DNA of 64,000 bases from assembly GCA_001447805.1 (NCBI GenBank), contig CP013099.1, positions 2,303,181 to 2,367,180 of the forward strand, written 5' to 3'. How positions within the stretch are numbered: the first letter of the stretch is position 1; each line of letters opens with the position of its first letter. A program made the translations under genes and the position numbers. Positions 51,167-64,000 of the stretch are shown here, in pieces. Source of the stretch: Candidatus Tenderia electrophaga. Lineage in GTDB: Bacteria; Pseudomonadota; Gammaproteobacteria; Tenderiales; Tenderiaceae. The notes beneath the pieces are model-generated. The model had not been told where the DNA came from. It saw only the letters and a program-made list of their open reading frames with translations, and did not search any database.

Positions 51167-51743
51167 TTCATATCTCCCAGGTAAGGCGCAGCTGCGCAGT
51201 GTCAGGAAACGCTTCCGAATTGATCCCGGAAGTCATCGTGATTTCCTTACAGGCCATGTTACTCTGGCGGGGACCCTCGTCTGTACGATGCCGCACATAG
51301 AACCCGGTACCTGGTCGTCGTAAGCGATGGCTCTCAGCAGTCCGCCAGTACCGCTCTGCTGAAAAAAGTTCGACGACAATACACAATCATTCCCATTCGT
51401 CACCCCCCTTCATTTGGCTATAATCCTACCGGGTCAACCGGTCACCGGGGTCGGCCCAAGTCAACCCACTGAATCTAAAAACAGAACAAGCCGATAAATA
51501 AGGTATTCCAGCGCTTGCTTTCCGTCGCCAATCGATGGACTGGCCTGGTCCGCCCCAGGAACCACGGGAACCGCGGTTTCTCCTTTGCGTGGTGCATGGC
51601 GGCTCACGGTTGCGAGTTATTATGAGATTCCCGTTTCTGTCAAACTACGCCAGTCTCCCCAGCAAAGGGGCGGGATCTCCATTTTGGAGCCGTGATGTTT
51701 ACCGTCGGATACTTTGATATCCACTCTTACCTTACCGCCCATC
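51167..51743. other. Gene-poor gap before PRC-barrel copy C
   Basis: In these 577 bases I find no gene with a recognisable product. The following 212 bases (51,744-51,955) are the duplicated leader of the PRC-barrel gene. Confidence 0.55.
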
Positions 51744-52430
51744 CGTTACCTCTTCAATCTTTCTGCGCCCGCCTTAGTACGCCAGCGAACAGACAGACCA
51801 ACTGCTTCGGCGTAATTTAAACCCTCATCCTGAATTCCATGTCTCGTGGCGATTCAATCCCCTTCCCGGTAATGATGCTGGCAAGGAAAAGCTGTGATGG
51901 AGCGTTAAACAGGACATTCCGTCCGACTAACACACCCGATTCAAAGGAGATTCATATGAAAAAACTACATTCATTTGCCTTATATGCATTGGTCACCCCC
52001 GTCATGACATTAGGTGCAGGTTCTTTGCTGGCTCAACAACCCACTGGCCAGAATAATGACCGTAAAATGCAGAGCGCACAGCAGGACCAGTCTCGCATAC
52101 AGAACCAGGGCTATCTACGCTCTACTCCGGCTAATTAATGGCATACAGGCGAGCAACCTGATCGGTGCCGATGTTAGAACCTCTGGTAATGAGGATGTCG
52201 GCTCGGTGAGTGACCTGATTATTGACGAGCGCGGTCAGGTCGTGGCTATTGTCGTCGGTGTCGGCGGGTTCCTGGGCATGGGCGAGAAGGACGTAGCCAT
52301 TGGCTGGGGTAATGTAACCCGATCTGAAAAATCTGATAAGAGCAAGATTCAGGTTAACGTGACCCGTGACAGTCTGATGTCTGCGCCGGAATTTAAACGC
52401 GCAGATTGAATTCCAGTTATCCACTTATTA
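51744..52430 (+). repeat. Direct repeat, copy C (leader plus PRC-barrel gene)
   Basis: A 687-base segment matches 53,857-54,539 (copy D) with about five substitutions and one 4-base insertion. It starts at CGTTACCTCTTCAATC and ends at CCACTTATTA in both copies. The copies flank a metalloprotease gene. Confidence 0.9.
51956..52409 (+). pseudogene. PRC-barrel protein, frameshifted copy C
   Basis: It has the same start (ATG behind AAAGGAGA), signal peptide and sequence as the intact copy at 54,069. A tandem duplication of TAAT near 52,131-52,138 shifts the frame and creates an immediate TAA after about 60 codons. The PRC-barrel domain itself (GADVRTSGNEDVGSVSDLII onward) remains readable only in the next frame to 52409. 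The truncated product would be a signal peptide plus a Gln-rich linker. Confidence 0.88.
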
Positions 52431-52446
52431 ATAGTGAAATAATAGG

Positions 52447-52475
52447 CGGCAGCGACGAAAGTCGTTGCCGTTTTC
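52447..52475 (+). terminator. Rho-independent terminator after PRC-barrel copy C
   Basis: GGCAGCGAC (52448-52456) pairs with GTCGTTGCC (52461-52469) through a GAAA tetraloop, extended by one C-G pair and followed by TTTTC. It is not part of the duplicated unit. Copy D has the barrel gene there instead. Confidence 0.8.
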
Positions 52476-52603
52476 ATATTCGGCCGACACAAACCCGTAA
52501 CCAGGTGCCCTCATCGGCATCCCGTGCCAGCTCCACACTGTCCCAGCACAGGCCGACCTTCTTCTCATCCATGCCAAGTAGGTCGCCGACGATTAATGAC
52601 GGG

Positions 52604-53431
52604 TTATCTGATGGATCCGATCTCCTTGTCCTCGATCGTGATGATCACGGAATGATCGATCAGATTGTTGGCGTGATACGCCTCGTCGCTCACCTTCTGG
52701 GCCAGTTGGGTAACGACGCCATTGGCCGGTCCGCCGTCATCGGCGGCACGCCCGTAGAGCAGCTGGACGCCACGCAGATCGCCGGGCTGCAGATCGTCGA
52801 AGGCCTCGGTATAGCGAAACGCCATCACCTGCCCGGATGGCCCGGGATGGTCCAGGCCGATGGCGTGACCGATCTCGTGAATCAGCGTATAGCGGATGTC
52901 GTATACATCCTCATCGCCATCAAACCCAACCTTCCACTCGTGGTCGGGATTCAAGCACACCAGCGCCTGTTCGATGGCGCGCACACCCTCCTCCGGATCG
53001 GGCGCGTAGGATACGTTGGCGAATGCCCGCCCGCGCGGCTGCCCCTGGGCACCGAGGATGATATCCGCCTCCCTCGCATCGTCGACCTCGTGAAATGACA
53101 GACCGGCAGCGCGTTCCCAAACCCGAAACGCCGCCGCGGTCTCGCGCGCCAGCGTCTCCCTGGAGAGGTTTCCCCCAAAAAGCGCATCGATCGGCGCCAG
53201 ATCACGACAGTTGCGCGCATCATCGAACCGTAGCGTCTTCCCGGCAAAGGCATAGCTGACACTGGCCCCCGCCCCCAACCGCCGCTCTCCCCACTTCACC
53301 TTGTAGCCGTCCAGCTCGAGCAGCCGGTACCCGGCTTCGCCGGCATAGGCAGGCAGCGGAAACGCCAAGGGCAGCAGTCCGGCCGTTATTAACGCTAGTA
53401 TGGGAAGGGTTGCACACGGAACTGATCGCAC
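52604..53431 (-). CDS. Matrixin-like (M10) zinc metalloprotease
   Basis: A 275-residue exported protease. A signal peptide (about 1-30, ending PLPAYA) leads to the catalytic region with the full zinc motif HEIGHAIGLDH (about 184-194) and a following GQVM Met-turn, as in matrixins. A serralysin or interstitial-collagenase fold is likely; no calcium-binding RTX repeats are present. The start is GTG with GGAG six bases upstream. It lies in reverse orientation between the two direct repeats of the PRC gene. Substrate unknown; extracellular or periplasmic action expected. Confidence 0.88.
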   Translation of the reverse strand: MRSVPCATLPILALITAGLLPLAFPLPAYAGEAGYRLLELDGYKVKWGERRLGAGASVSYAFAGKTLRFDDARNCRDLAPIDALFGGNLSRETLARETAAAFRVWERAAGLSFHEVDDAREADIILGAQGQPRGRAFANVSYAPDPEEGVRAIEQALVCLNPDHEWKVGFDGDEDVYDIRYTLIHEIGHAIGLDHPGPSGQVMAFRYTEAFDDLQPGDLRGVQLLYGRAADDGGPANGVVTQLAQKVSDEAYHANNLIDHSVIITIEDKEIGSIR

Positions 53432-53856
53432 CGCAGTCTCCTAACTAAAGATACCTGAAAGCACGGGAATCGATGCGCTTTGAAGGCGCATGGGGACTCC
53501 GGCACAGGATAACGAACATCGAACTAATAGGTGCGGCACCGCACCGACAAAACTTTAGTTTATACTCAGACCTGAATCCGTGGCTTAACCGCGGCGCCTA
53601 GCACAAGCTCCTGATTCCACAGCGAATCGAAAAATGCCCGCATAACCTAAGGGTGAAGCTAAGATTTTTGAAACCCCCGGGCACTGGCCGTAGGTAGAGA
53701 ACGATCCAGGCGCCAGCCTCACACTACAACCCCATGGATTTCCGGGAATGCGTAGCAAAAGACACCGCTATGGTTGCGGAGTGCGTAGACAGCTTGCTCA
53801 CTTTGTTCGTGGTGGCGGACGACCATCGTCTTGTGGGTTACAGAATTAAAGGTTTT
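53432..53856. other. Gap between the metalloprotease and PRC-barrel copy D
   Basis: A short forward frame from 53,734 (DDHRLVGYRIKGFRYLFN) runs into the start of the repeat and may be the tail of a lost gene; I cannot name it. Otherwise nothing is seen. Confidence 0.4.
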
Positions 53857-54539
53857 CGTTACCTCTTCAATCTTTCTGCGCCCGCCTTAGTACGCCAGCG
53901 AACAGACAGACCAACTGCTTCGGCGTAATTTAAACCCTCATCCTGAATTCCATGTCTCGTGGCGATTCAATCCCCTTCCCGGTAATGATGCTGGCAAGGA
54001 AAAGCTGTGATGAAGCGTTAAACAGGACATTCCGTCCGACTAACACACCCGATTCAAAGGAGATTCATATGAAAAAACTACATTCATTTGCCTTATATGC
54101 ATTGGTCACCCCCGTCATGACATTAGGTGCAGGTTCTTTGCTGGCTCAACAACCCACTGGCCAGAATAATGACCGTAAAATGCAGAGCGCACAGCAGGAC
54201 CAGTCTCGCATACAGAACCAAGGCTATCTACGCTCTACTCCGGCTAATGGCATACAGGCGAGCAACCTGATCGGTGCCGATGTTAGAACCTCTGGTAATG
54301 AGGATGTCGGCTCGGTGAGTGACCTGATTATTGACGAGCGCGGTCAGGTCGTGGCTATTGTCGTCGGTGTCGGCGGGTTCCTGGGCATGGGCGAGAAGGA
54401 CGTCGCCATTGGCTGGGGTAATGTAACCAGATCTGAAAAATCTGATAAGAGCAAGATTCAGGTTAACGTGACCCGTGACAGTCTGATGTCTGCGCCGGAA
54501 TTTAAACGCGCAGATTGAATTCCAGTTACCCACTTATTA
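53857..54539 (+). repeat. Direct repeat, copy D (leader plus PRC-barrel gene)
   Basis: A 683-base partner of copy C, lacking the 4-base TAAT insertion. It abuts the start of the barrel repeat B at 54,540 without a spacer. Confidence 0.9.
54069..54518 (+). CDS. Exported PRC-barrel domain protein, intact copy D
   Basis: A 149-residue protein. A signal peptide (about 1-26, ending GSLLA) and a Gln-rich linker (27-60) are followed by a PRC-barrel domain (about 64-140) with GADVRTSGNEDVGSVSDLII and the typical VGGFLGMGEKDVAIGW loop. It resembles periplasmic PRC-barrel proteins found with stress genes. AAAGGAGA precedes ATG 54069. An upstream frame to 53,952 has no ribosome site. The barrel gene B follows by 169 bases with no terminator between. 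Confidence 0.88.
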   Translation: MKKLHSFALYALVTPVMTLGAGSLLAQQPTGQNNDRKMQSAQQDQSRIQNQGYLRSTPANGIQASNLIGADVRTSGNEDVGSVSDLIIDERGQVVAIVVGVGGFLGMGEKDVAIGWGNVTRSEKSDKSKIQVNVTRDSLMSAPEFKRAD

Positions 54540-55271
54540 GTGGCCGTTTTCAATTGATATTTTTTAATGAAACGGCCCGGCACTGGGGCTAACTTAGTCT
54601 CAGGGTTCGACCTGAGAGCGAACAACCATGAACGAAATGGCTTCAGGTCGAAATGTTTATCAACCACTCATTTAGAAGGAGTCACTCATGAAGAACACGG
54701 CAGCAGTAATATGTTTCTTAACCACCGTTATACCCGGTCTGTCGATGGCGCAGCTTGGATATGGTCCCGTCGAAGGGGATCGAGAGTTGTCCGTTGCCGG
54801 GACCGGCAGTAGCGAATCGGATTTCGACAACGGAAGCTTCGGCATCACCGGCGACATGGGCTGGTATTTCCGTGACAACATGGTCGCGGGGGTGCGTCAA
54901 AGCATCAATTACGCCAGCATCGAAGGGGCGTCGCTGAACGATGATTTCTGGAATGGCTCGACACGCGGCTACCTGAATTATCAATTCGGCTCGTCGCAAT
55001 GGCGACCCTTCGTCGGCGGCAGTCTTGGCATGATCTATGGTGATGGCGTCAACAACAGCGGCTTTGCCGGGGTGGAGCTGGGATTGAAGTATTATGTCCT
55101 CGCCAAGACCTACATCCTGGCCCGCCTGGACTATCAGTGGTTCTTTGATGACTCGGACGACATCGATGACACCTTTGACGACGGCGCCTGGCAAAACACG
55201 GTAGGCATAGGTTTTAACTTCTGAATGTCGGCACGTTCGCGTTGTCTGCAGCCGACGGCGCTGCGGTAGGT
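54540..55271 (+). repeat. Duplicated segment, copy B (leader, barrel gene and start of 3' scar)
   Basis: It matches 42,974-43,706. The core 54,636-54,878 is identical to copy A over 243 bases. Confidence 0.85.
54688..55224 (+). CDS. Outer-membrane beta-barrel protein, copy B
   Basis: A 178-residue exported barrel protein, identical to copy A (43,122) except for six conservative substitutions (Ala/Ser, Leu/Met, Val/Leu, Ala/Ser, Glu/Asp, Leu/Ile), all in the last half. The same signal peptide and terminal GIGFNF sorting signal are present. It follows the PRC-barrel gene D and could be co-transcribed with it. Both copies appear functional. Confidence 0.85.
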   Translation: MKNTAAVICFLTTVIPGLSMAQLGYGPVEGDRELSVAGTGSSESDFDNGSFGITGDMGWYFRDNMVAGVRQSINYASIEGASLNDDFWNGSTRGYLNYQFGSSQWRPFVGGSLGMIYGDGVNNSGFAGVELGLKYYVLAKTYILARLDYQWFFDDSDDIDDTFDDGAWQNTVGIGFNF

Positions 55272-55573
55272 GATGTAATGCCCGAGCAGTTGAGTCATCG
55301 GGTCTTCATTTACCGCATTCTCAGCCAGATAAGTAAGCATTCTCGGCGTCCCGCTCGTAACCCTTGCCGTTCGAGAAAAACGGCCGGCACGGTGGACGAT
55401 GCTGTGCGCCAATTGTGTGATTTACTGATAACTCGGCGCTTTGACCCAACGGTACCGGGCCGTGCCATCCCATCGGGGCGGTCAATGTACGTATGTGGAA
55501 GTGAATATTTAGATTCAGCGCCGAGCCAAACCAATAGGTCAAGGTGACTGCTCCCGTATGCGCCGTCTTGTGG
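55215..55573 (-). pseudogene. Degenerate IS91-family transposase
   Basis: On the reverse strand a run KTAHTGAVTLTYWFG then SALNLNIHFH matches the conserved HTGAVTLIQRFGSALNLNIHFH block of IS91-type (HUH, rolling-circle) transposases. Further on, in shifted frames, ERDAENAYLSG and then NEDPMTQLLGHYITYRSAVG follow, in the order expected near the C-terminus. Several frameshifts and the loss of both protein ends make it inactive. It begins right at the 3' end of barrel copy B and ends at the IS3-family element. Confidence 0.78.
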
Positions 55574-56120
55574 ACTACCCCCGGTACCATAGACACCTCG
55601 CAACCTCATTTTGAGGCATGTTCGAATGCCTCGGGACTGAACCCACCAAGATGACTATGACGTCGTATACGGTTGTAGAACATCTCGATGTAATCGAAGA
55701 CGTCGGCCCTGGCAAGATCACGGGTTTTATAGATCCGTTTCTTTTCATGTTCCTTCTTTAGGCTGCTGAAGAAAGATTCTGCCACGGCATTGTCCCAGCA
55801 GTTGCCGCGTCGCCTCATGCTGGGTTCCAGGTTATTGGCTTTCAGAAAGCGCAACCAGTCATCACTGCCATACTGTGAGCCCTGGTCGGAGTGTATCATC
55901 ACTCGACTTTGGGGGCGACGACGCCACACTGCCATGATCAATGCATCCAGCACCAGCTCACGGGCTAGCATCGGCTTTACCGACCAGCCCACCACCTTGC
56001 GCGAATACAGATCGACCACGACAGCCAGATACAGCCAACCCTGCCAGGTCCTGAGGTAAGTGATATCCGTCACCCAGGCTACGAGGCCGGAGATGTCCAC
56101 AATACTCGGGGAAGTCCACA
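55569..56120 (-). mobile_element. Internally deleted IS3-family element
   Basis: Both ends carry inverted repeats: TGTGGACTACCCCCGG... at 55569-55599 and its counterpart at 56090-56120, which starts TGTGGACTTCCCCGAG on the other strand. They match at roughly two thirds of positions, including the outer eight bases. Only the C-terminal part of orfB lies between, so orfA and the N-terminus of orfB are deleted. The flanking trinucleotides (TCT, CCA) do not form a target duplication. It is inserted next to the IS91 remnant. Confidence 0.65.
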
Positions 56121-56124
56121 CCAC
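55606..56124 (-). pseudogene. IS3-family transposase OrfB, N-terminally truncated
   Basis: 172 residues of the DDE integrase domain: first Asp in WVTDITYLRTW, second in IHSDQGSQYG, Glu in NAVAESFFSSLKKE, with the typical FDYIEMFYNRIRRHSHLGG end. The catalytic triad is intact, but the helix-turn-helix half of OrfB and all of OrfA are missing. The apparent first 15 residues come from the terminal repeat. It cannot support transposition alone. Confidence 0.88.
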
Positions 56125-56501
56125 CTGACAGGCAATACCTGTACAGGTTATCCTATCCGCCTAGAAACGGATTCCAGCGTTTTTCCATTGCACCCCGGCG
56201 GCAAATCATTGAGTATGGGTTAACACGTTTTTGACTTCCCTCTCACTCACGAAGGTGTGGATACAGGGGGTCCACTACTGCCTTGCCGGATCGGTTAACC
56301 CATGACGGACGTGTCATCAATACCGGAAAAGAGGGTTACCCCTTCAGGCGCCCTACTTGTCAACAACAGCAGCACAAAAAACTAGAAAAAAACAATAAAA
56401 TCAGGCCATAATCTGACCAGACAGGCGTGTCATTTTTCAGATGCGACACCCCTGGGTCAATTTTAAATGCACATCAACATTAGACACACCAGGTCATCGA
56501 A
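56121..56501. other. Upstream region of the mrp operon
   Basis: These 381 bases hold no gene. They include a perfect 12-base palindrome ACCTGTACAGGT (56137-56148), listed separately, and an AT-rich stretch near 56,370-56,410 that may contain the operon promoter. Confidence 0.5.
56137..56148. promoter_or_regulatory. Perfect palindrome ACCTGTACAGGT
   Basis: A 12-base perfect dyad lies about 350 bases upstream of mnhE and just outside the IS3 element. It could be an operator, but its distance from the gene makes this uncertain. Confidence 0.3.
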
Positions 56502-56978
56502 ATGAAATCTTTCAGTTTTACCGTATTACTGTTTCTTTTCTGGATCTTTTTGTCGGGACATCTGGAACCCCTACTGCTGGGGCTGGGGATGGCATCTGTC
56601 GCGCTCACGGTTTTCCTGTCACGGCGGATGAATGTCATCGATCATGAAAGCTATCCGCTGCATCTCTCGGCGAAGTTCCCCGGCTTTTTTGTCTATATAC
56701 TCCGAGAGATCGTCAAGGCAAATATCGATGTTGTTAGACGGATCCTGAGCTGGAGGGCGACGCCGATAAGTCCGCAGATGATCGAAATCCCACAGCCGCA
56801 GGAATCCGATCTGGGGGCGGTGATTTACGCCAATTCCATCACCTTGACCCCCGGCACGGTCACGATCAGCTTATCGAAGAACAGTCTCACCGTTCATGCG
56901 CTCAGCAAGGAGGCGGCCAACGAGCTTGCCACGGGCGCCATGTCAGACGAGATATCTAACCGGGTTTTCAAACAATAG
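56502..56978 (+). CDS. mnhE: Na+/H+ antiporter subunit E (MrpE/MnhE)
   Basis: A 158-residue membrane subunit of a Mrp-type multisubunit cation/proton antiporter. Two N-terminal helices (about 5-45) and the MrpE core follow, with LPRxI-like KFPGFFVYILREIVKANIDV and the conserved NSITLTPGTVTISL. It opens the operon. Its TAG overlaps the GTG of mnhF by one base, so translation is coupled. The Mrp complex exports sodium in exchange for protons and supports pH or salt tolerance. Confidence 0.92.
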   Translation: MKSFSFTVLLFLFWIFLSGHLEPLLLGLGMASVALTVFLSRRMNVIDHESYPLHLSAKFPGFFVYILREIVKANIDVVRRILSWRATPISPQMIEIPQPQESDLGAVIYANSITLTPGTVTISLSKNSLTVHALSKEAANELATGAMSDEISNRVFKQ

Positions 56979-57262
56979 TGTTTATCGCAGCTGCACTGGC
57001 GATCCTTGTGACGATGGGATTGGCCCTCGCGCGCGCGCTTGCCGGGCCCACGACCTATGATCGTATTGCGGCGGTCAACATGTTTGGCACCAAGACTGTG
57101 CTGCTGATCGCTGTCTTGGCGTTTATCTCCGGCAGAGGTGATCTGCTGGATATTGCGCTGGTCTATGCCTTGATCAATTTCATAGGTGTCGTCGCAGCGC
57201 TGAGGCTGGTCACTCGAGGCGATTTTCACTCCTCCGACAGTGATGAAAGCGAAGCTAAGTAA
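56978..57262 (+). CDS. mnhF: Na+/H+ antiporter subunit F (MrpF/MnhF)
   Basis: A 94-residue protein with three membrane helices and the family block RALAGPTTYDRIAAVNMFGT. GTG start, overlapping the mnhE stop by one base. The acidic C-terminal tail DSDESEAK is slightly longer than usual. Confidence 0.92.
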   Translation: MFIAAALAILVTMGLALARALAGPTTYDRIAAVNMFGTKTVLLIAVLAFISGRGDLLDIALVYALINFIGVVAALRLVTRGDFHSSDSDESEAK

Positions 57263-57274
57263 GGGAGCGCCGGA

Positions 57275-57595
57275 ATTATTATCGACATCCTCAGTTGGAT
57301 CTGTCTGTTGGCCGGCGGGGCGCTGGGTATCGTTGGCGGCATCGGCATCCACCGTTTCCCCGACTTTTACAGTCGCCTGCACGCTGCCGGAATAACCGAT
57401 ACTCTTTGCGCCATGTTGATCCTGTTGGGCCTTGGACTACAGGCCGGCTGGAGTCTCACCGCCTTTAAATTGACCTTGATTTTTGTGTTCCTCTTTTTTA
57501 CCAGCCCGACCGCGTCCCACGCGCTGGCAAACGCGGCGCTGCACAGTGGCCTGCGACCCAGGCTGGATAACAATGAACCTGGAGCCGGATCATGA
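57275..57595 (+). CDS. mnhG: Na+/H+ antiporter subunit G (MrpG/MnhG), AUU start
   Basis: A 106-residue protein with three membrane helices and the family motif HRFPDFYSRLHAAGITDTLC. No ATG, GTG or TTG lies at the expected beginning. The frame reads ATT ATT ATC GAC ATC CTC AGT TGG, which matches the usual MIIDILSW opening if the first ATT (57275) initiates. GGGAG sits seven bases upstream, an ideal spacing. The next candidate, TTG 57308, has no ribosome site and would remove most of the first helix. The end overlaps the next gene by four bases. Confidence 0.85.
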   Translation: MIIDILSWICLLAGGALGIVGGIGIHRFPDFYSRLHAAGITDTLCAMLILLGLGLQAGWSLTAFKLTLIFVFLFFTSPTASHALANAALHSGLRPRLDNNEPGAGS

Positions 57596-58182
57596 TCGAT
57601 ACTGTTATCGATGTCACTTTGCTGGCCTTTTTGGCGATCACCGCAGTAGCTATCTTGCGCCTGACAAACCTGTTTGCCATCGTCATGCTGTACGGGATTT
57701 TCAGTCTGCTGTCAGCCGGTCTGTTTGTGGTTATGGATGCCCCCGACGTCGCTTTCACCGAGGCGGCAGTGGGGGCGGGAATCTCCACGGTATTGCTATT
57801 GGCCACCCTGGCCTTGGTCAAAAGATCACAAAAGCCCTACTACGTAGAGGCGCCGCGGACCCACCGTCCATGGTTGCCGCTAATCGTCGCGGTCATAACA
57901 GGTTCAGCACTGGTTTACGGCACCTGGGATATCCCGGGGTTTGGTGCGGCCGAGGCGCCGGCACAAAGTCATGTTGCGCGCTACTACATCGACAATGCAT
58001 TGCAGGAAACGGGTGTGCCGAATGTTGTTACCGCGGTACTGGCGAGTTATCGCGGGTTTGACACCCTGGGCGAGGTCGTGGTGGTTTATACCGCTGGCGT
58101 GGCTGTGCTGCTGCTGATCGGTGGGAGGCGCGCCAAAATGGCGGCCAAACCCAAGCACGAGGAGAGACCAGATGAGTCCTAA
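57592..58182 (+). CDS. Mrp subunit with DUF4040 (MbhD/MbhE-like) region
   Basis: A 196-residue membrane protein with about six helices. The first half carries MLYGIFSLLSAGLFVVMDAP and DVAFTEAAVGAGISTVLLLA, typical of DUF4040/MbhD and of the C-terminal part of MrpA. The second half resembles MbhE and ends with a basic cytoplasmic tail. In classical Mrp operons this piece is fused to the large MrpA subunit; here it is a separate gene, as in Mbh-type complexes. It overlaps MnhB by 11 bases. Confidence 0.85.
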   Translation: MIDTVIDVTLLAFLAITAVAILRLTNLFAIVMLYGIFSLLSAGLFVVMDAPDVAFTEAAVGAGISTVLLLATLALVKRSQKPYYVEAPRTHRPWLPLIVAVITGSALVYGTWDIPGFGAAEAPAQSHVARYYIDNALQETGVPNVVTAVLASYRGFDTLGEVVVVYTAGVAVLLLIGGRRAKMAAKPKHEERPDES

Positions 58183-58591
58183 CCTTATCCTGCATGTTAT
58201 TGCCAAATTCGTTATTCCACTGATTATTCTGTTTGCACTCTATGTTCAGTTTCATGGCGATTTCGGGCCGGGTGGCGGTTTTCAGGCCGGGGTCATTTTC
58301 AGCGCCGCGCTCATTCTTTACGCCTTGGTGTTCGGGCTTGACGCCGCAGAAAAGATCATCCCCTCACATTGGTTACACAGACTGGCTGCGCTGGGCGTGG
58401 TGATCTATGCCGGGGTTGGAGTGGTGTCCTTGCTGTTAGGTGGCAATTATCTCGATTACACAGTGATGGGCAGCACTCAGATTGCCGGGCAACATCTGGG
58501 AATTCTGCTGGTGGAGCTGGGCGTGGGGATTACGGTGACATCGGTTATGTTGATTCTTTTTTTTGCCTTCGCAGGCAGGGCTAGAGAATGA
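58172..58591 (+). CDS. mnhB: Na+/H+ antiporter subunit B (MrpB/MnhB)
   Basis: A 139-residue membrane subunit with four helices and the MnhB signature QFHGDFGPGGGFQAGVIFSA. I use ATG 58172, preceded by GAGGAGAG, not a longer upstream frame. It overlaps both the preceding gene (11 bases) and mnhC (4 bases). Confidence 0.92.
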   Translation: MSPNLILHVIAKFVIPLIILFALYVQFHGDFGPGGGFQAGVIFSAALILYALVFGLDAAEKIIPSHWLHRLAALGVVIYAGVGVVSLLLGGNYLDYTVMGSTQIAGQHLGILLVELGVGITVTSVMLILFFAFAGRARE

Positions 58592-58947
58592 TGGATTTCT
58601 TTATTGGCCACTACAACTACTGGATCGTGATTTTTTTAATGATGGTCGGGCTCTATACGGTAATAAGCCGCGGCAACCTGATAAAAAAGATTATCGGCCT
58701 GAATATCTTCCAGGTCTCGGTCTTTATTCTCTATATCAGCCTCGGCACCGTGGAGGGCGGGGCGGCGCCTATTATCACTGAGGGCGTCGAGGTCTATTCC
58801 AACCCCCTACCCCATGTGTTGATCCTAACTGCCATCGTGGTGGGCGTGGCAACGACGGCGCTGGCGCTGGCTTTGGTGGTACGCATCAAAGAGTCCTACG
58901 GCACCATTGAAGAGAATGAAATTCATAATCAGGATCATTCGCTGTAA
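58588..58947 (+). CDS. mnhC: Na+/H+ antiporter subunit C (MrpC/MnhC, NuoK-like)
   Basis: A 119-residue, three-helix NuoK-type subunit with LYTVISRGNLIKKIIGLNIF and the proton-path HVLILTAIVVGVATTALALA block. It overlaps its neighbours by four and one bases, in keeping with a tightly coupled operon. Confidence 0.92.
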   Translation: MMDFFIGHYNYWIVIFLMMVGLYTVISRGNLIKKIIGLNIFQVSVFILYISLGTVEGGAAPIITEGVEVYSNPLPHVLILTAIVVGVATTALALALVVRIKESYGTIEENEIHNQDHSL

Positions 58948-60422
58948 TGGAGAATCATTTTAGCCTGTTGTTGGTGGTGGTACCGCTGATCGCAGCGCCT
59001 GTGGTCGCCGTATTGCCCCGTGGCCGATGGCCCTGGGCGGTTGCGTTTATTGTTGCGGCCTCGTGTGCCGTACTTGCCGGGATGCAGCTGTGGACGGTGG
59101 TTCATGAGGGGACCATCAGTTACGCACTGGGTGGCTGGGCGCCGCCCTGGGGGATTGAGTACCGTATCGATGCCGTCAATGCCTTCATGGCCTTGATCGT
59201 AGCCGCTATTGCTGCGATCACACTACCCTATGCTTTACTCAGCGCAGAGCGGGAGATCCCTGATGAAAAGATCCCGCTTTTCTATAGCGCCATGCTGCTC
59301 TGTTTGGCCGGTCTTCTGGGGATCACTCAGACCGGTGATATCTTTAACGTGTTTGTCTTTCTGGAGATATCATCACTTTCCTCCTACGCATTGATCAGCC
59401 TTGGTAAAAAGCGGCAAGCGCTCACTGCCGCCTATCAATATCTGATCATGGGCACCATCGGTGCCACCTTCTATTTGATTGGCGTCGGCCTGATCTATTC
59501 CCAAACCGGCAGCCTGAATATGCTGGATGTCGCAAGCATTCTACCCGGCGTGCAGCATCTGAAAACGGTGGAAACCGGCTTCGCCTTCATCATGATCGGC
59601 ATCGCACTCAAGCTGGCACTGTTTCCTCTGCATCTCTGGCTGCCCAATGCCTACACCTACGCACCTTCAGTGGTCACTGTTTTTCTGGCAGCGACGGCTA
59701 CAAAAGTAGCGGTCTATGTGCTGCTGCGCATACTGTTTACGGTTTTTCCGGAGGGCTTTGCGCTGGCCACGCCCGCCAACGAACTGTTCATCGTTGCAGG
59801 TATCACCGGCATTATCAGTGCCTCGATCTATGCCATCTACCAGGCGGATGTCAAACGATTGCTGGCCTACTCCAGCGTGGCGCAAATCGGTTATATGGCG
59901 CTGGGGATCGGGCTTGCATCGACGGCAGGCATCGCCGCCGCACTGATCCACCTGTTCAACCATGCCTTGATGAAGGGTGCACTATTCATGGCGGTCGGCG
60001 CGATCATCTACCGTATCGGCGCATGCCGTATGGAAGAGATACAGGGCCTCGGCAGGACGATGCCCTGGACCTTCGGCGCCATCGTCATCGCTGGTCTTAG
60101 CCTCATCGGCGTACCGGGTACCGCCGGTTTCGTCAGCAAATGGTATCTGGTAATCGCAGCGCTTGAGCAACAGGCGTGGATCTCTGTCGCCGTTATCCTG
60201 CTCGGTTCTCTGCTGGCTGTGGTCTACATCGGCAAGATCATAGAGGCTCTCTACTTCAAGCCGGTCACGGACGCCGGAAAAACAGTCAGCGAGGCGCCCA
60301 TGTTGCTGCTGGTACCGACCTGGCTCCTGGTGCTTGCCAATCTCTACTTCGGTCTGGATACCGACCTGACTGTAGGCGTGGCTGAGAAAGCGGCGGCCGT
60401 TCTTGGAGGCATGGCCCCATGA
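58947..60422 (+). CDS. mnhD: Na+/H+ antiporter subunit D (MrpD/MnhD)
   Basis: A 491-residue proton-translocating subunit of the NuoL/M/N family with about 14 helices. Visible key features are the conserved Glu in FNVFVFLEISSLSSYAL, the Lys in LKLALFPLHLWLPNAY with its His/Trp, and the KRLLAYSSVAQIGY helix break. First of three related large subunits here. It overlaps the next gene by four bases (ATGA). Confidence 0.93.
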   Translation: MENHFSLLLVVVPLIAAPVVAVLPRGRWPWAVAFIVAASCAVLAGMQLWTVVHEGTISYALGGWAPPWGIEYRIDAVNAFMALIVAAIAAITLPYALLSAEREIPDEKIPLFYSAMLLCLAGLLGITQTGDIFNVFVFLEISSLSSYALISLGKKRQALTAAYQYLIMGTIGATFYLIGVGLIYSQTGSLNMLDVASILPGVQHLKTVETGFAFIMIGIALKLALFPLHLWLPNAYTYAPSVVTVFLAATATKVAVYVLLRILFTVFPEGFALATPANELFIVAGITGIISASIYAIYQADVKRLLAYSSVAQIGYMALGIGLASTAGIAAALIHLFNHALMKGALFMAVGAIIYRIGACRMEEIQGLGRTMPWTFGAIVIAGLSLIGVPGTAGFVSKWYLVIAALEQQAWISVAVILLGSLLAVVYIGKIIEALYFKPVTDAGKTVSEAPMLLLVPTWLLVLANLYFGLDTDLTVGVAEKAAAVLGGMAP

Positions 60423-61885
60423 GTGCCGAGATTCTGCTGCTGACAACCCTCCTGCTACCGCTGGTGGGCGCGGCCGGCATTATTATTGCCCGCCACACCC
60501 CTGATATTAGAGAGGGGATCACGCTGCTGACATCGACGCTGATCGCCATCCTGGTGCTGATGATCGCAGCGCGCTTCATGGATGGCGAGCAGTTTACCCT
60601 CACCGTGATGGAGCCACTGCCGGGCATCGCCATCGCCTTCGAGATCGAGGCATTGGGGATGCTATTTGCCCTGGTTGCCGGACTGTTGTGGGTGGTGACC
60701 TCGATCTACGCCATCGGTTATATGCGCAGCCATAACGAGCAGAATCAGACACGATTCTTCGCCGCATTTGCCGTGTCTATCGCCGCGACGATGGGCATCG
60801 CCTTCTCGGCCAACCTGTTCACGCTGTTCCTGTTCTATGAGATGTTGACTCTGGCCACCTGGCCGCTGGTCACCCATGCCGGCACAGCTGAAGCGAAGCG
60901 CGGCGGACGTACTTATCTCGGCATCTTACTCGGCACATCCATCGGCCTGTTCCTGCTGGCCATCCTGGTCACATGGTCGCTTACCGGCCGTGTCGACTTC
61001 CAGCACGGCGGTATACTGTCCGGCCATATCGATCCTGCCTGGGCCGGTTTGCTCTATGCTCTGTTCCTGTTCGGTATCGGCAAGGCCGCCGTGATGCCCT
61101 TCCACCGCTGGCTACCCGCGGCGATGGTGGCGCCCACGCCGGTCAGCGCCCTGCTGCACGCGGTAGCCGTGGTCAAGGCCGGTGTCTTCACCCTGCTTAA
61201 GGTGACGATCTACATCTTTGGTGGCGAATTCATCCTTTCCAATGATGTGACCGGCGGCCTGATCTGGGTAGCCGCCGCCACCATATTGATCGCCTCCATG
61301 GTTGCGATGACCCAGGACAATCTCAAGGCACGGCTGGCCTACTCCACCGTCAGCCAACTGAGTTACATTGTACTGGGGGCCATGTTGGCCAGCAAAGCGG
61401 GGTTGATAGGCGCCTCCATGCATATCGCGATGCATGCCTTTGCCAAGATCACCCTGTTTTTTGCCGCAGGCGCCATTTTCGTCGCCAGCCATAAAAAACG
61501 GGTCAGCGAGCTGGATGGGCTGGGTCGCGCCATGCCCGTCACCTTTGCGGCCTTCTTTATCGGCACCTTGAGCATCATCGGTATGCCACCTTTCGGCGGC
61601 ATGTGGAGCAAGTGGTACCTTGGCCTGGGTGCGGTAGAGACGGCACAGCTGTTGCTGCTTGCCGTATTGATGATCAGCTCACTACTCAACATCATGTATC
61701 TGCTGCCCATCCCTATCCGCGCCTTTTTCAGCAAACCGGAGAGTGGTGAACACTATAGCAACATCGCGGAAGCGCCGACGCCGATGCTGCTGGCAATGGT
61801 GATTACCTCGACCGCCTGCGTCATCCTCTTCTTCTATCCCGACCCTTTCTATCGACTGGCGGGTTTAGCTGCCGGAGGCTACTGA
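60419..61885 (+). CDS. Second MrpD/NuoM-type proton-conducting subunit
   Basis: A 488-residue membrane protein of the same family as mnhD, with TLFLFYEMLTLATWPLVTHA, the path residues GKAAVMPFHRWLPAAMVAPT and LKARLAYSTVSQLSYIVLGA. It is distinct in sequence from mnhD, so this is an old duplication or a subunit of different origin. It overlaps mnhD by four bases and is followed one base later by a small gene. Confidence 0.9.
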   Translation: MSAEILLLTTLLLPLVGAAGIIIARHTPDIREGITLLTSTLIAILVLMIAARFMDGEQFTLTVMEPLPGIAIAFEIEALGMLFALVAGLLWVVTSIYAIGYMRSHNEQNQTRFFAAFAVSIAATMGIAFSANLFTLFLFYEMLTLATWPLVTHAGTAEAKRGGRTYLGILLGTSIGLFLLAILVTWSLTGRVDFQHGGILSGHIDPAWAGLLYALFLFGIGKAAVMPFHRWLPAAMVAPTPVSALLHAVAVVKAGVFTLLKVTIYIFGGEFILSNDVTGGLIWVAAATILIASMVAMTQDNLKARLAYSTVSQLSYIVLGAMLASKAGLIGASMHIAMHAFAKITLFFAAGAIFVASHKKRVSELDGLGRAMPVTFAAFFIGTLSIIGMPPFGGMWSKWYLGLGAVETAQLLLLAVLMISSLLNIMYLLPIPIRAFFSKPESGEHYSNIAEAPTPMLLAMVITSTACVILFFYPDPFYRLAGLAAGGY

Positions 61886-61886
61886 C

Positions 61887-62141
61887 ATGTCAGATAAAAA
61901 AGAGAAAATCCATTTATTTGACCGGCCGGAGAATGTTAAACGCTTGCTCACGGGCTTCTATGCCATCTGCATTCTGCTGCTGCTGGCCGACTTTGTGCTG
62001 CACCGCCACGTCGGCTTTGACTGGGAGAAGATACCGGCGTTTTACGCCTTGTACGGCTTTATCGCCTGCGTCCTGCTGGTTCTCATTGCGAAGAAACTAC
62101 GCAATGTCGTGATGCGCAAGGAAGACTATTACGATGAGTGA
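61887..62141 (+). CDS. Small two-helix membrane protein in the mrp operon
   Basis: An 84-residue protein with a charged N-terminus (MSDKKEKIHLFDRPENVKRL), two membrane helices (about 22-42 and 51-72) and an acidic end EDYYDE. It begins one base after the upstream subunit and overlaps the next gene by eight bases. I recognise no named family with certainty. Position between two proton-conducting subunits suggests a structural subunit specific to this type of complex. Confidence 0.8.
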   Translation: MSDKKEKIHLFDRPENVKRLLTGFYAICILLLLADFVLHRHVGFDWEKIPAFYALYGFIACVLLVLIAKKLRNVVMRKEDYYDE

Positions 62142-63840
62142 GTTCCCCCCGTTTCTGCTCTTTTTTGGAGCGGCGGTATTAGTTGCCATTACCCGCGGCT
62201 TGCCACGACAACTGATACTGCTGGCAACCCCCGTAATTACGGGACTCTATCTCTGGCTGGGCATCAATCCCGAAGCCGATGTCGCTTATACCCTCATGAG
62301 CTATGAGCTCACGCTCGTACGGGCGGATAAACTCAGCTTGCTGTTCGGCTATCTGTTCTGTATCGCCAGCTTTTTTGCAGGCATCTTCTCCCTCCATGTA
62401 GAGGATACAAAACAGCATATTGCCGGGGTGATGTACGCGGGCAGCGCATTGGGTGCGGTATTTTCCGGTGATCTGATCACCCTGTTCATCTTTTGGGAGC
62501 TGTTGGCGATAAGTTCCGTGTTTCTCATCTGGGCACGCGGCACAGAGCGGGCATTGCGGGCCGGCATGCGCTATCTGGTCTTTCAGGTCCTGTCGGGGGT
62601 ACTGCTGCTGGCCGGCGCACTGGTCTACTATCGCAACACAGGCTCGCTCGAATTTGACCACATCGGTCTGGATGCGGGTATTGCAGGCTGGTTGATCTTT
62701 ATCGCCTTCGGGATCAAAAGTGCCTTTCCGTTTCTGCACAGCTGGCTTACCGATGGCTATCCTGAAGCGACAGTGACCGGCACGGTCTTACTCTCCGCCT
62801 TTACCACCAAGGTTGCCGTCTACGCCCTTGCGCGTGGCTTTGCGGGTGAGGAAATCCTGATCTATATCGGTGTCACGATGGCTTGCTTCCCGATTTTCTA
62901 CGCTGTTATCGAGAATGACCTGCGTAAAGTGCTGGCCTATAGCTTGATCAACCAGATCGGCTTCATGGTGACGGGTATTGGTATCGGCACCGCCCTGGCA
63001 CTGAACGGTGCCGTTGCCCATGCGTTTAGCGACGTGATCTTTAAAGGATTGCTGTTTATGAGCATGGGTGCAGTGCTCTATCGGGTCGGCAACATCAATG
63101 GCTCGGATCTGGGTGGGCTCTATAAGTCCATGCCCAAAACAACCGTGCTCTGCATTATCGGTGCACTGTCCATCTCGGCGTTTCCGTTATTCAGTGGCTT
63201 TGTCAGCAAGTCGATGGTGATGACCGCACTGATGAAGGAGGACTATGCTTATATCTGGCTGCTGATGCTGTTTGCCTCCGCCGGTGTATTCCACCATGCA
63301 GGCATCAAGATCCCGTACTTCGCGTTTTTTGCCCATGACTCCGGCATTCGTACTCAAGAAGCGCCCCGGAATATGCTGGTTGCCATGAGTGTGGCTGCAC
63401 TGCTCTGTATCTTTATTGGTACCCAGCCCCAGTATCTCTATGCGCTGCTGCCCTGGGAGATGGACTACTGGCCCTATGATACGACTCATGTCCTGGCCCA
63501 ATTGCAGTTACTCTTCTTCTCCGCTCTGGCCTTTGTCTGGTTGAATAAACGAGGGTTGTATCCACCGGAGCTGCGCTCGGTCAATCTGGATATGGAGTGG
63601 TTCTATCGCAGGTTGGTGCCTGCTGGCGCGCAACGAACCCTGAACCTTCTGCACAGTGCAAAAGAAACTACGCTGGCAACAGTAAGGGCATACATGCAGG
63701 GTATGCAAAACGAATTCGGAAAATCTCCGATGGCCAAATATCATCTCTCGGAGAGTTGGCCTACCGGGAGCATGATCTTCTGGATTTCAGCCATCCTTGC
63801 TGCTTTTCTGTTGCTGGATCTCTTTGGTGTGGGGCGTTAG
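62134..63840 (+). CDS. Third MrpD/NuoL-type proton-conducting subunit
   Basis: A 568-residue large membrane protein of the MrpA/D family with about 14 helices. The motif LITLFIFWELLAISSVFLIW has the usual Glu. GIKSAFPFLHSWLTDGYPEA keeps Lys and His, and NDLRKVLAYSLINQIGFMVT is the discontinuous-helix block. It has a C-terminal extension of about 70 residues ending in a membrane helix (MIFWISAILAAFLLLDLFGV), as in NuoL-like subunits with an anchoring tail. It closes the operon. It lacks the MrpA C-terminal domain, which is encoded separately at 57,592. Confidence 0.9.
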   Translation: MSEFPPFLLFFGAAVLVAITRGLPRQLILLATPVITGLYLWLGINPEADVAYTLMSYELTLVRADKLSLLFGYLFCIASFFAGIFSLHVEDTKQHIAGVMYAGSALGAVFSGDLITLFIFWELLAISSVFLIWARGTERALRAGMRYLVFQVLSGVLLLAGALVYYRNTGSLEFDHIGLDAGIAGWLIFIAFGIKSAFPFLHSWLTDGYPEATVTGTVLLSAFTTKVAVYALARGFAGEEILIYIGVTMACFPIFYAVIENDLRKVLAYSLINQIGFMVTGIGIGTALALNGAVAHAFSDVIFKGLLFMSMGAVLYRVGNINGSDLGGLYKSMPKTTVLCIIGALSISAFPLFSGFVSKSMVMTALMKEDYAYIWLLMLFASAGVFHHAGIKIPYFAFFAHDSGIRTQEAPRNMLVAMSVAALLCIFIGTQPQYLYALLPWEMDYWPYDTTHVLAQLQLLFFSALAFVWLNKRGLYPPELRSVNLDMEWFYRRLVPAGAQRTLNLLHSAKETTLATVRAYMQGMQNEFGKSPMAKYHLSESWPTGSMIFWISAILAAFLLLDLFGVGR

Positions 63841-63938
63841 CCTGAAGTGGCTGAGAAAAACCCCCGATAGAGTCGATATACTCTCCTACCCCATAGCGCT
63901 ATATTTATCCCTATATTCTCGCGCCAACGAGGCTTAAC

Positions 63939-64000
63939 TTAGCGCCATTCGCTCCAGACCCGATTGATTTCTATCTCCTGCTCCACGGTGATGACATGCT
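63939..64000 (-). CDS. 3' end of a reverse-strand gene cut by the window edge
   Basis: The reverse frame ending at TAA (63939-63941) is open to the edge and reads HVITVEQEIEINRVWSEWR. Too short to identify; convergent with the mrp operon. Confidence 0.3.
   Translation of the reverse strand, partial: HVITVEQEIEINRVWSEWR

Follow-up and report, generated by a model that had tools for sequence, protein, structure and literature searches.

A putative AUU start codon of mnhG at an altered mnhF-mnhG junction in Candidatus Tenderia electrophaga

We have moderate confidence that the mnhG gene of the sodium/proton antiporter operon found in the analysed window (a 64,000-nucleotide stretch of the Candidatus Tenderia electrophaga genome) is translated from an AUU codon at position 57275, to give a protein of 106 residues that would begin with fMet-IIDILSWICLL. 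Probably the ATT is genuine and serves as a weak start, an alternative being a single-base sequencing error.

The operon is represented by the genes collected in Table 1, all of whose mnh frames are intact according to the open reading frames and the profile matches. The product of mnhG was identified with scores above the curated cut-offs both by Pfam PhaG_MnhG_YufB (PF03334; 90.2 bits, cut-off 23.4) and by TIGR01300 (82.2 bits, cut-off 63.1), which together with the neighbouring mnhE, F, B, C and D indicates a genuine MnhG/MrpG/PhaG subunit. The ATG of the MbhD/MbhE-like gene overlaps the mnhG stop (ATGA). The same genome contains two further mnhG genes (G000:C1:1392163-1392444 and G000:C1:1790530-1790814), each of which has an ATG close to where its start is expected. 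Upstream of the operon, a fragment of an integrase-core (rve) transposase (55606-56124, minus strand) ends just before the upstream stretch that can be aligned with relatives (from 56181 on), and a PRC-barrel gene is present in two near-identical copies (51839-52409 and 53952-54518), of which the first has its frame broken by a four-base tandem difference.

Table 1. Features of the mnh operon and of its mnhF-mnhG junction (positions in the window)
Feature	Position	Strand	Remarks
mnhE, ATG start, opens the operon	56502..56978	+	Pfam MNHE, 105.9 bits (cut-off 27)
mnhF, starting at a GTG that overlaps the stop of mnhE and ending at TAA 57260-57262	56978..57262	+	Pfam MrpF_PhaF, 58.7 bits (cut-off 23.3)
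Shine-Dalgarno AGGGAG	57262..57267	+	its first base is also the final base of the mnhF stop; predicted pairing -7.6 kcal/mol
ATT, proposed mnhG start codon	57275..57277	+	aligned with the ATG/GTG/TTG starts of relatives
mnhG, 106 codons from ATT, stop TGA 57593-57595	57275..57595	+	PhaG_MnhG_YufB, TIGR01300
TTG, earliest standard start of the mnhG frame, rejected as native start	57308..57310	+	predicted pairing -3.1 kcal/mol
MbhD/MbhE-like subunit gene	57592..58182	+	Pfam MbhD and MbhE above cut-off
Remaining operon: mnhB, mnhC and three MnhD/NuoL/M/N-type genes	58172..63840	+	open frames

The mnhG frame, read from 57263, gives GSAGIIIDILSWICLL... The TAA that terminates mnhF lies in this very frame and closes it upstream, mnhF and mnhG sharing one frame here, separated by this stop alone. 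From that stop to the TTG at 57308, neither ATG, GTG nor TTG was found in the mnhG frame, in the sequence or in its translation, which agrees with the claim of an earlier note on this DNA that the conserved N-terminus lacks a standard start. The same note had described GGGAG as ideally spaced before the ATT and the ATT as restoring the usual (M)IIDILSW opening. Both statements stand: seven bases separate GGGAG (57263-57267) from the ATT, a spacing also seen in relatives, and it is exactly at this codon that the MIIDILSW, VIIDILSW or LIIDI.. of the close relatives starts. The ATT shares with known AUU-start genes a conserved start position, the lack of a standard start in its vicinity and a Shine-Dalgarno sequence at a proper distance.

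With the translated mnhG frame as query, a scan of bacterial and archaeal genomes yielded 55 loci, and a search of 56 relative genomes gave a match in 24. After the removal of five copies from 89 sequences, 84 were compared; mnhF and mnhG were found in order in 80, and 57 of these (the window and 56 relatives) were retained at an mnhG identity of at least 55%. All 56 relatives possess a standard start (ATG in 37, GTG in 17, TTG in 2) at the codon aligned with the ATT or at most 3 codons from it, and in the close relatives the aligned GTG, ATG or TTG is followed by the same IIDILSW. One of the 56, L063, is ambiguous, with CTG at the aligned place and GTG just before it. The window is alone among the 57 in having no ATG, GTG or TTG within -3 to +2 codons of the aligned start. 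Another 369 genomes belonging to the class were searched, with a strong match in 48. With 30 additional loci and further stretches, the wider set, from which 18 sequences were dropped (16 copies and 2 contig-edge cases), comprises 115 distinct homologues including the window. Only three of these, namely the window, L133 and L021, have no standard start within -4 to +3 codons, and L133 has an in-frame ATG 12 codons upstream. L021 (1783-1785, minus strand), from genome G005 of the same genus, is a paralogous mnhG that exhibits ATA where the aligned L032 has ATG; AGGAGG precedes the ATA by six bases, and the only standard start further upstream, a TTG at a distance of 12 codons, lies inside mnhF. 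Next to the ATT of the window, this ATA is another AUH start candidate for the genus, coming from a draft genome that is 77% complete.

The earlier note had advised looking for the same codon in relatives. None of the 56 has the ATT or needs any non-standard start, and because the codon is absent there, it cannot be regarded as a conserved control device; its occurrence in one genome only also speaks against the AUU reading as such. Among the papers listed by literature searches, none has a title that deals with the start codon of mnhG or mrpG.

Pairing energies were calculated with the consensus anti-Shine-Dalgarno sequence, a search for the 16S 3' end in the organism's own genome having given no match. 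The predicted pairing at the ATT site (-7.6 kcal/mol) falls within the range of 20 relatives (-4.3 to -11.9 kcal/mol), 13 of which share the spacing of the window. In 17 of the 20 the pairing is slightly stronger than in the window, so no gain in the Shine-Dalgarno sequence compensates for the codon. Control by an RNA structure at the junction was likewise considered and rejected, since the fold of 57235-57310 is no better than that of shuffled sequences (z = 0.46), 126 out of 200 of which reached an equally good or better fold. No Rfam family exceeded its gathering score in 51500-64000. In the infC gene of the same genome (L089, open frame from base 1489), the first 18 codons of the frame include no ATG, GTG or TTG, and the gene appears to start with ATC behind GGAGG; a non-standard start is what is expected of genes for IF3. 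Since infC fits an ATC start, this cell can probably use AUH starts.

Comparison of the junctions points to a second change that the earlier note had missed, namely that the mnhF stop is shifted upstream and the usual NTGA overlap is lost. In 42 of the 56 relatives, the NTGA quartet overlaps the mnhF stop with the mnhG start, as in the translationally coupled pairs described in PMC10666635. The window differs from such pairs in that the overlap is gone and mnhF ends 12 nt before the ATT. Gaps of 12 to 27 nt between mnhF and mnhG are found in 7 of the 56 relatives, all with standard starts. The alignment of 56973-60589 with L045 contains a single one-base gap in 3,617 columns, located between the end of mnhF and GGGAG, while alignments to other relatives have more gaps (e.g. 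6 to 12 for L034-L037). Within an NTGA overlap, a G to T change in NTG also destroys the mnhF stop (TGA to TTA); the upstream stop would therefore have arisen before the change of the start or together with it.

The coding sequence of mnhG was under purifying selection on the branch of the window. The pN/pS ratio of the window against 11 relatives is 0.142 (0.116 among the relatives); for codons 2-11, a small N-terminal sample from the same 11 relatives, it is 0.106 (0.145 among the relatives), and for the rest of the gene 0.132, slightly above the 0.106 of the relatives. The N-terminus of the window is the common IIDILSWICLL. Across 100 codons in eight close sequences, the codon differences private to the window's mnhG comprise 7 silent and no amino-acid-changing ones; mnhE gave no countable codons in this count. 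In the tree, the window is alone on its branch (length 0.136), with L045 as the next relative at 0.254. These tests span the whole branch and do not date the ATT, which could be younger than most of it.

We propose that in this lineage the ancestral NTGA overlap was lost through an indel that left mnhF ending at the present TAA, and that the ancestral NTG start became ATT. The ribosome would bind AGGGAG directly after the mnhF stop, either as a fresh 30S subunit or after ending mnhF 12 nt upstream, and the initiator tRNA would start at AUU with a low expected yield. Translation of mnhG should be reduced because both the overlap and the NTG start are lost: AUU and AUA starts lowered the reporter yield in S. 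aureus (PMC13009471), and after the loss of an overlap reinitiation drops with distance, the decrease being strong at about 20 nt and variable when the distance is shorter (PMC10666635). Because MrpG has a residue essential for activity (PMC7419157), the level of G could limit the complex, and a weak mnhG copy could be tolerable because of the two other mnhG genes in the genome. Expression from AUU may also respond to the level of IF3. The earlier note had raised a throttling of the G subunit; as a purposeful control, this is not supported by conservation. It is conceivable, though we would call it a long shot, that AUH starts in the genus set the dose of the antiporter G subunit (AUU in this mnhG, AUA in the L021 mnhG and AUC in infC), all responding to IF3, so that antiporter assembly would track the state of translation.

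Among the other explanations, an error of sequencing or assembly, with an ordinary start as the true codon at 57275 and a normal mnhG, is unlikely but has to be taken seriously. One wrong base would suffice, and a locally poor consensus could yield both of the unusual differences, which lie less than 20 bases apart. Moreover, genuine switches to AUU are very rare (the earlier note had called AUU starts as such very rare): in PMC5622118, AUU replaced 1 of 61,358 ancestral AUG and 1 of 5,080 ancestral GUG starts, and for this reason both an error and a loss of the start stay plausible. However, the assembly consists of 2 contigs, with a completeness of 100% and a contamination of 0.55%, the mnh genes carry open frames along their whole length with the junction indel as the only one against L045, and earlier mnhF stops occur also in relatives, so the shift of the mnhF stop is of a natural kind.

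Rather unlikely, too, is a recent loss of the start, in which the base is real, initiation at the AUU is negligible and the mnhG copy of this operon is being lost together with the complex. Such decay would fit the disappearance of the start together with that of the overlap, which supports reinitiation (a process that falls steeply with distance; PMC10666635), the presence of the two other mnhG genes, and the transposase fragment and broken duplicate gene just upstream, but it is at odds with the intact mnh frames, the lack of private amino-acid changes in mnhG and the retention of a good Shine-Dalgarno sequence. Internal initiation at TTG 57308 or CTG 57305, leading to a shorter MnhG, is very improbable: the TTG is what an automatic caller would list, but its use would take the 11 conserved residues from the first membrane helix, its predicted pairing is less than half that of the ATT, and none of the 56 relatives relies on this position, which makes the TTG start, named in the earlier note as a refutation, a poor rival. 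Finally, read-through of the mnhF TAA into an F-G fusion, which the shared frame and the single intervening stop would permit, is hardly credible given that mnhF and mnhG are in different frames in the 42 relatives with the overlap and that no recoding signal was found in the fold of the junction.

Returning to initiation at AUU, the classic cases are infC and pcnB of E. coli, whose AUU starts are conserved or experimentally proven and regulatory. The mnhG of the window resembles them in having AUU behind a Shine-Dalgarno sequence and standard starts too far downstream, but differs in that its AUU is a candidate start, found in one genome. For pcnB, the AUU start is given by the title of a reference cited in PMC13009471. 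According to the same paper, AUU is also documented as the start of S. aureus cvfC1 and AUA as that of ccpN; as proposed for the present case, these are overlooked AUH starts that reduce the protein yield; in contrast to mnhG, the S. aureus codon is conserved among staphylococci and follows a very strong extended Shine-Dalgarno sequence. Another similar case is Borrelia bbe22 (pncA), with a documented AUU start that was not recognised, so that databases give a shorter protein; there, however, the start is experimentally supported (PMC13398362).

Should the ATT turn out to be an error or a lost start, the case would be an ordinary one. If it is real, it would add one more to the few known AUU starts and would represent a switch confined to one lineage, which has close relatives to either side, in a subunit of a complex that needs all its parts; the annotated MnhG would then be too short by the first residues of its first helix. 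It would also raise the question of whether a subunit encoded in an operon can survive when its NTG codon and the overlap of stop and start are both lost.
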